Of a stretch of DNA of 29,431 bases, positions 28,128-29,431 are shown in pieces (positions within the stretch are counted from its first letter, which is position 1; every line of letters begins with the position of its first letter). The position numbers and the translations under genes were made by a program. The notes beneath the pieces are model-generated. The model ran no database searches. It was given only the letters and a program-made list of their open reading frames with translations, and was not told the origin of the DNA. Source of the DNA: a virus; IMG/VR virus record IMGVR_UViG_3300010354_000414, positions 1 through 29,431 of that record. One strand, 5' to 3'.

Positions 28128-28523
28128 ATGGGAATGTTTGATTATTTCCGCTCATCATATGATTTGGGCGAACAATTCACAAATGTAGTGTGCCAAACTA
28201 AAGATATTGAAGATGGTATTGGTGGCACGATGACAGACTACTGGTTAGATCCAAGTGGTCTTTTGTGGTATCCAAGTTACATTGGATGTAGTGAAATGGA
28301 AATCTATGAAGAGGGACATCCAAAGTATGATCCAGATCGAAAATGGTTAAACTTTGAATGGATTCCTACTGGAGTTCATGGTAGGTATCAACCATGTTAT
28401 ATTACACGATACATTGAAGTATATCCTGCTAACTGGAAAGGAAAGTGGGAAGACTGGCCGCGCTTGCGTATTCACTTCAAGTATGGTAAAATTCAAGATT
28501 ATCAGGATGTGACAGGACGATGA
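28128..28523 (+). CDS. Conserved phage protein, MGMFDY family
   Basis: 131 aa. The N-terminus MGMFDYFRSSYDLGEQFTNV, followed by CQTKDIED and a YWLDPSGLLW strand, matches a widespread phage/prophage family that starts MGMFD and has an FQTK segment with G-x-L-W strands. No function is known to me. The C-terminal half is Trp-rich (PANWKGKWEDWPRLRIHFKY). It begins a single base after the previous stop and ends in an ATGA overlap. Confidence 0.84.
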   Translation: MGMFDYFRSSYDLGEQFTNVVCQTKDIEDGIGGTMTDYWLDPSGLLWYPSYIGCSEMEIYEEGHPKYDPDRKWLNFEWIPTGVHGRYQPCYITRYIEVYPANWKGKWEDWPRLRIHFKYGKIQDYQDVTGR

Positions 28524-28822
28524 GCACAACGACTTTCACTTACAAAAGCGATGAACTGGTCTGTATGGGTGAACGCTACCCAGGCAAGACACTGACAATC
28601 TCAACGAAGTGTGACGACCTCAACGCACACGAGTTGCTTGACATTTTTAAATCTTTCATGTTAGGATGTGGTTATGCCGAAAAAAGTTTCTACGATGCCT
28701 GCTACGAAGCCTACCAAGAGTACCCGCTCTACCGTCAAAGCGGAAACGGATCAAAACTGGGGGAAACTAACAAAACAGAAGAAGGATACAAAGACCCCTA
28801 CTGTTACCCAACAGGAATGTGA
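28520..28822 (+). CDS. Unrecognised 100-aa protein with long 3' overlap
   Basis: MSTTTFTYKSDELVCMGERY continues with NAHELLDIFKSFMLGCGYAE, a small beta sheet then a helix, a pattern I recall from small phage proteins. AGGA precedes the start at 28520. The last 149 bases overlap the next gene in another frame. The segment after about residue 65 (YPLYRQSGNGSKLGETNKTE) looks less ordered, as expected if that part is constrained by the other frame. Confidence 0.75.
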   Translation: MSTTTFTYKSDELVCMGERYPGKTLTISTKCDDLNAHELLDIFKSFMLGCGYAEKSFYDACYEAYQEYPLYRQSGNGSKLGETNKTEEGYKDPYCYPTGM

Positions 28823-29042
28823 TCTTAAACTCAGCAATGACCCTGATAAGTTTCCTCATCCTGGATTCCCTATTCGCCTAGAATACAAAGACGGTAACGA
28901 CAAGAAAACTTGTTGGTTTCAATGCTATGATCACTTTCATAAACATATCACACGATACAAAGTAACACAGTATGAAGCACTTACGAATGATGTGGCGCTG
29001 GTGGGCAAAGTCGCTGGGACAAAAGGCAAGCGAGTGCGATAA
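28674..29042 (+). CDS. Unrecognised 122-aa basic protein
   Basis: The ATG at 28674 follows AGGA at 28663 and is preferred to the GTG at 28668. The first 45 residues are Lys/Thr/Ser-rich and disordered (MPKKVSTMPATKPTKSTRST); the rest is a folded part with FPHPGFPIRLEYKDGN, KTCWFQCYDHFHKHITRYKV and a basic end (VAGTKGKRVR). The C-terminal core resembles cyanophage small proteins with a CWFQ...H..K.I.RY pattern. It overlaps genes at both ends. Confidence 0.75.
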   Translation: MPKKVSTMPATKPTKSTRSTVKAETDQNWGKLTKQKKDTKTPTVTQQECDLKLSNDPDKFPHPGFPIRLEYKDGNDKKTCWFQCYDHFHKHITRYKVTQYEALTNDVALVGKVAGTKGKRVR

Positions 29043-29301
29043 AGAATCAGATAAGGTTGCTATCATTCGCACCTTTATCTTCGCTACATATCTCATCACC
29101 AATGCTTTTATTGTAGCGGGTGTGGTGAGACACTGGAATGATAGAAACATTAACGTTGAGGTAGAAATCTATGAAACTCCAAACAGTTCCGAAATCCTAC
29201 ACACAAAAGGATGGCACAATCTGGGAATGGACAGAGACACCAGAATTGAGGGCGTATATCGCTCAGGCACAATCAAAAACCGCACTGGAGAATTTGAATG
29301 A
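28972..29301 (+). CDS. Small membrane protein, 109 aa
   Basis: A Trp-rich start (MWRWWAKSLGQKASECDKES; alternative ATGs at 28987 and 28990) is followed by a membrane helix at about residues 30-52 (AIIRTFIFATYLITNAFIVA). I recall small cyanophage membrane proteins with WWAK.LG.KAS..DKE and a following helix ending in HW. The tail after HW (from about residue 55) overlaps the next gene by 131 bases and may be a by-product of that gene. The stop makes an ATGA overlap with 29298. Confidence 0.75.
   Translation: MKHLRMMWRWWAKSLGQKASECDKESDKVAIIRTFIFATYLITNAFIVAGVVRHWNDRNINVEVEIYETPNSSEILHTKGWHNLGMDRDTRIEGVYRSGTIKNRTGEFE
29158..29162 (+). promoter_or_regulatory. Ribosome binding site GAGGT for the 53-aa gene
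   Basis: GAGGT lies 8 bases before the ATG at 29171 inside the upstream membrane-protein gene. It is the main reason to accept the 53-aa frame. Confidence 0.65.
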
Positions 29302-29332
29302 ACCCCCAAAACGAGCACCCCGAAATAGCTGA
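29171..29332 (+). CDS. Small protein, 53 aa, embedded in overlapping genes
   Basis: MKLQTVPKSYTQKDGTIWEW continues with TETPELRAYIAQAQSKTALE and a Pro/Arg-rich end. The KSYT..DG..WEW.ETPE pattern recalls a family of very small cyanophage proteins. It is supported by a strong RBS but overlaps the membrane-protein gene by 131 bases and the next by 35. If real, it is one of the clearest overlapping-gene cases in the window. Confidence 0.65.
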   Translation: MKLQTVPKSYTQKDGTIWEWTETPELRAYIAQAQSKTALENLNEPPKRAPRNS

Positions 29333-29431
29333 AGTTGACTGGATTGATGATACATTCCGTGTGGAAGAAACTCGCTGGAAAACTTGGCGTAGTTATACGA
29401 AAGAAGGAAAAGAACTAATTACATCACTGAA
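29298..29431 (+). CDS. Conserved cyanophage-like protein, 3' end outside window
   Basis: MNPQNEHPEIAEVDWIDDTF leads into RVEETRWKTWRSYTKEGKEL and TSL at the window edge. The RVEE.RWKTW.S....GK.L.TSL segment is one I recall from a small cyanophage protein family of unknown function. The start is in an ATGA overlap with the membrane-protein gene. At least 44 residues are visible; the stop lies beyond the right edge. Confidence 0.75.
   Translation, partial: MNPQNEHPEIAEVDWIDDTFRVEETRWKTWRSYTKEGKELITSL

Follow-up and report, generated by a model that had tools for sequence, protein, structure and literature searches.

In a T4-like cyanophage, a gene for a small protein of 53 residues (p53) lies nested out of frame in a membrane-protein gene (mem), and we consider it very probable that the pair represents two pre-existing cyanophage genes that became superimposed with both frames functional. 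Both frames are preserved by natural selection, as read from the distribution of changes among some 40 related viruses. The DNA examined (hereafter the window) is the complete virus record IMGVR_UViG_3300010354_000414 of IMG/VR (29,431 bases). Its right end resembles Synechococcus T4-like phages of the Kyanoviridae (e.g. S-CREM1, DSL-LC02 and S-PM2), and on sequence likeness the window is a T4-like cyanophage fragment.

Features of the mem/p53 region, with coordinates in the window
Feature	Position	Strand	Description
mem	28972-29301	+	109 aa; single-TM protein, PHROG 1679; frame +1
mem conserved domain	28972-29139	+	residues 1-56; followed by a variable, disordered linker and a conserved C-terminus
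GAGGT, Shine-Dalgarno-like motif of p53	29158-29162	+	8 nt 5' of the p53 ATG
p53 (nested gene)	29171-29332	+	53 aa; PHROG 558; predicted beta-hairpin plus helix
Dual-coding overlap of mem and p53	29171-29301	+	131 nt; p53 is +1 relative to mem
mem C-terminal motif N-R-T-G-E-F-E-stop	29278-29301	+	also found, as N[RK]xxEFE*, in p53-free mem proteins (those with no p53 nested inside)
GGAG, SD-like motif of next gene	29287-29290	+	inside both mem and p53
ATGA junction, three frames	29298-29301	+	next-gene start, mem stop and p53 codons 43-44
Next gene	29298-29431	+	PHROG 744 / Pfam DUF7468 (PF24272); cut by the window end

A preliminary description placed the 53-aa gene mostly inside the membrane-protein gene and started the next gene at 29298, and all of its open reading frame coordinates are exact. 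It also had all three forward frames apparently coding at 29298-29301. All three are used there, but one of the readings is a stop, because the mem TGA occupies 29299-29301; the next-gene ATG occupies 29298-29300 and residues N43-E44 of p53 span both. In the window, p53 extends 31 nt beyond the mem stop, and the next-gene frame stays open from its ATG to the window end. The next gene matches PHROG 744 / DUF7468 at 92.4 bits against a cut-off of 27, as determined with the full protein of a relative (L005, 78 aa), the window copy being cut. In the records G001, G002, G006 and G007, the DUF7468 gene (29298-29431 in the window) directly precedes a weak p53-like gene, so the DUF7468 and p53 families tend to be neighbours.

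Both overlapping genes belong to recognizable families, although a Pfam search gave no match for either. The p53 protein matches the PHROG 558 profile (E=1.1e-8, profile positions 4-40 of 51), and outside the overlap group it is a separate gene: it stands alone in S-RSM4, follows mem and the next gene in L195, L200, L201 and L205, and precedes mem in L197, L202, L203 and L206. In all 17 distinct stand-alone homologues examined, several of them closely related, the mem-equivalent frame is stopped within 128 nt, and a W-E-W core is common to them and p53. The AlphaFold2 model of p53 comprises two strands (residues 6-11 and 17-22) and a helix (24-42) with a mean pLDDT of 76, rising to 92 in block 11-20; a Foldseek search with this model returned nothing at E<=0.001, and the best-looking candidates were other unnamed cyanophage small proteins. 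The mem protein matches the PHROG 1679 profile over residues 4-65 (E=1.3e-25). Its AlphaFold2 model has a long helix (23-56) holding the membrane segment and no structure past residue 58, and residues 59-109 are predicted to be disordered (pLDDT ~40). In S-CREM1, a mem gene without p53 runs directly into the DUF7468 gene. Members of the mem family are conserved yet lack annotation in L231 (S-PM2, ~501-713) and L232 (S-RIM32, ~501-728), and likewise in L131 (S-CREM1) and L132 (S-T4).

A transmembrane protein with a gene nested in the +1 frame is the classic Rz/Rz1 layout, and the pair might accordingly be read as nested spanins, in which the gene of a membrane i-spanin would house that of a lipoprotein o-spanin. 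This is extremely improbable given that p53 contains no cysteine, and hence no lipobox, lacks a signal peptide and is predicted to form a hairpin-helix, while mem residues 59-109 are predicted to be disordered rather than a coiled coil.

Relatives were gathered by two separate IMG/VR searches, one with mem and one with p53 as the query, whose contig sets overlap; the counts below are based on 39 distinct loci, the window among them. In every one of these loci mem and p53 co-occur in the same register and p53 starts with ATG, the distance from this ATG to the mem stop being 131 or 134 nt. Loss of the 53-aa frame, looked for in these close relatives, was not seen. Assembly error was considered and is ruled out by the shared register in distinct loci from many metagenomes. 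The mem frame is open across p53 in 39/39 loci, and among the loci from the p53 search, which is independent of mem, only L126, L127 and L128 lie outside an open mem frame. No carrier of the overlap turned up among the cultured phages that were searched. When p53 was resampled synonymously with phage codon usage, the mean probability that mem stayed open was 0.09; the open mem frame over p53 is more than chance. The end of p53 is more variable, falling 31, 22, 13, 7 or 4 nt after the mem stop in all loci but one, where it lies 14 nt ahead of that stop. The spot read in three frames is thus common but not fixed across loci.

Parsimony changes counted on a tree of the 39 loci indicate how the constraint shifts along the sequence. 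At mem codon positions 1/2/3, changes per site amount to (i) 2.7/1.2/6.7 in the mem-only region; (ii) 5.7/1.7/2.1 over p53 codons 1-22; and (iii) 3.2/1.6/3.6 over p53 codons 23-43. Changes therefore concentrate at mem third positions ahead of p53 and at p53 third positions within its codons 1-22; over codons 23-43 the third position is free in neither frame. OLGenie-style ratios (PMC7531306) with a codon bootstrap, approximate because they come from our own implementation on parsimony changes, gave a p53 dNN/dNS of 0.25 (0.14-0.42) for the overlap minus its last 18 nt, while a control with the p53 frame extended upstream into mem-only sequence gave 1.12. Purifying selection, as estimated in this way, acts on p53 across the entire overlap. 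The preliminary description had called the 53-aa frame protein-like, and the stand-alone relatives, the PHROG 558 match and purifying selection all bear this out: on these comparisons p53 is a genuine gene. That mem alone is real and the 53-aa frame a chance open reading frame could draw on the absence of an SD-like motif in 13/39 loci, but it is barely credible against the low p53 ratio, the invariant start codon, the PHROG 558 match and the W-E-W core that stand-alone homologues have in common with p53.

For mem, dNN/dSN is 0.75 (0.51-1.44) over p53 codons 1-22, where amino-acid constraint is not significant, and 0.35 (0.15-0.79) over p53 codons 23-43, which correspond to approximately the last 20 mem residues. 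Without the last 18 nt the second-half ratio is 0.45 (0.14-1.29), so part of the signal lies in the C-terminus. Where AA, AG or GA comes next, a T at the end of a p53 codon would put a stop into the mem frame. Codons ending in T number 0/159 in this context vs 303/693 elsewhere, and inferred changes to T 0/42 vs 38/149 (Fisher p=4e-5). Purifying selection in both frames, the test for a functional same-strand overlap, was thus found for mem in its second half only, the first half showing stop avoidance. These patterns indicate that over the p53 folded core mem is kept stop-free only, and that the last ~20 residues of its tail are themselves under purifying selection. An RNA or regulatory element, instead of two proteins, could also cause conservation, and the SD and start of the next gene do lie within the last 18 nt. 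This is highly improbable, because the three-base periodicity changes from that of mem to that of p53 along the sequence and RNA folding is unremarkable around both starts (z 0.5 and 0.65). Scans for sigma-70 promoters and terminators stayed at chance level.

Overlap-type mem proteins typically end N-x-x-G-E-F-E*, the window protein ends NRTGEFE*, and 24 distinct p53-free mem proteins end N-[RKS]-x-[FL]-E-F-E*; no DUF7468 gene was detected after these 24 genes. The motif of the NRxxEFE type is best read as a protein-level feature rather than a side effect of the signal that starts the next gene, because the EFE end occurs at 0/260 of the other ATGA junctions that the collected loci contain and because GEFE is retained in 10 of the 12 loci (among 39) in which the next-gene GGAG is altered. 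The EFE* end common to both mem types could reflect common ancestry or convergence. Most EFE-type records hold all three families at separate positions, with weak p53 matches (E 1e-3 to 1e-6). Downstream of EFE-type mem genes (e.g. L034, L044 and L042), CTAAATA-like sequence resembling late promoters was seen, or a terminator-like hairpin (L034 and L044).

A more serious alternative, though still an unlikely one, is that selection acts on p53 alone and that mem, its former stop lost, is passively read across p53 as far as the start of the next gene. The near absence of constraint on mem over p53 codons 1-22, except against stops, and the existence of p53 as a stand-alone gene are in line with this. 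Against it stand the selection on the second half of mem, the stable register of the mem stop and the EFE* end, which also occurs in p53-free mem and is retained despite GGAG change. The preliminary description had suggested that the tail of the membrane protein is a secondary product. This holds insofar as p53 dominates much of the overlap, but not for the last ~20 residues, which appear selected and whose NRTGEFE* terminus matches the ends of p53-free mem proteins. Moreover, the tail is the unavoidable C-terminus of mem and not a separate product; it is p53 that needs internal initiation.

We therefore return to two superimposed functional genes. A ribosome on mem would read the entire overlap and terminate at its TGA; since no earlier stop exists, mem ribosomes must traverse all of it. 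A second ribosome would start internally at ATG 29171 to make p53. The GAGGT at 8-nt spacing suits such initiation in the window, as the preliminary description had proposed in calling it a strong RBS, but the signal is not universal: an SD-like motif precedes p53 in 26/39 loci. The ATGA junction suggests that the next gene is coupled to mem, probably by termination-reinitiation. We infer internal p53 initiation, next-gene coupling and the order of events. The p53 folded core (residues ~1-34) would lie mostly opposite the unconstrained mem linker and the loose p53 C-terminus opposite the conserved mem motif, so that in both genes the tolerant part faces the constrained part of its partner. Disorder in one overlap partner is held to relieve overlap constraint (PMC8227390).

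As to origin, a tree of mem N-domains (57 columns) is too short to order overlap and non-overlap types; the scatter of overlap types across this tree means that the overlap may have recombined or arisen more than once. One reading, with somewhat less than even chances, is insertion of p53 by rearrangement into a complete mem, between its membrane domain and the NRxxEFE motif, with both frames staying open. If so, two old genes merged without either losing its ends, and the p53 tail was newly overprinted on the mem C-terminal motif.

Further long same-strand overlaps were observed directly upstream: a 100-aa gene (28520-28822) and a 122-aa gene (28674-29042) share 149 nt, and the 122-aa gene shares 71 nt with mem. 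The 100-aa/122-aa overlap recurs in the same frame in 12 distinct loci (149-197 nt).

The mem/p53 pair appears to be a real and fairly ordinary case of phage gene compaction, and it leaves knowledge of overlapping genes unchanged in principle. As a clean natural example from a large dsDNA phage, with free-standing relatives known for each of two extensively overlapping genes, it allows the cost and benefit of overlap to be measured by comparison with non-overlapped versions. The pair also illustrates that annotation misses such genes, mem being unannotated in several reference cyanophages. No paper describing the pair was found among the open-access papers searched.

Compared with known systems, stand-alone PHROG 558 proteins (e.g. 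SRSM4_218 of S-RSM4, near nrdC and tRNA) share the family, start and W-E-W-x-E-T-P-E-L core of p53; unlike p53, their genes are not nested and the mem-equivalent frame is closed by stops. PHROG 1679 proteins (S-CREM1, DSL-LC03, S-PM2 and EFE-type IMG/VR loci) share the N-terminal and TM domain of mem, and those of EFE type also its N[RK]xxEFE* end, but they measure about 65-90 aa and carry no p53 inside. Long same-strand nesting in a shifted frame is likewise known from phiX174 gene E in D and lambda Rz/Rz1 (PMC8227390, PMC6139136), from which mem/p53 differs in that nothing points to a lysis role and each partner comes from an older, independent family. Most overlapping genes of dsDNA viruses share 1 or 4 nt; across DNA viruses, mean overlap lengths have a median of 15.6 nt (PMC8903798). 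The mem/next-gene junction is exactly the common ATGA stop/start type of dsDNA phages in that survey, while the 131-nt mem/p53 overlap is far above its typical viral length. For a conserved overlap between two independent families, 131 nt is thus an unusual length, but the kind is known.
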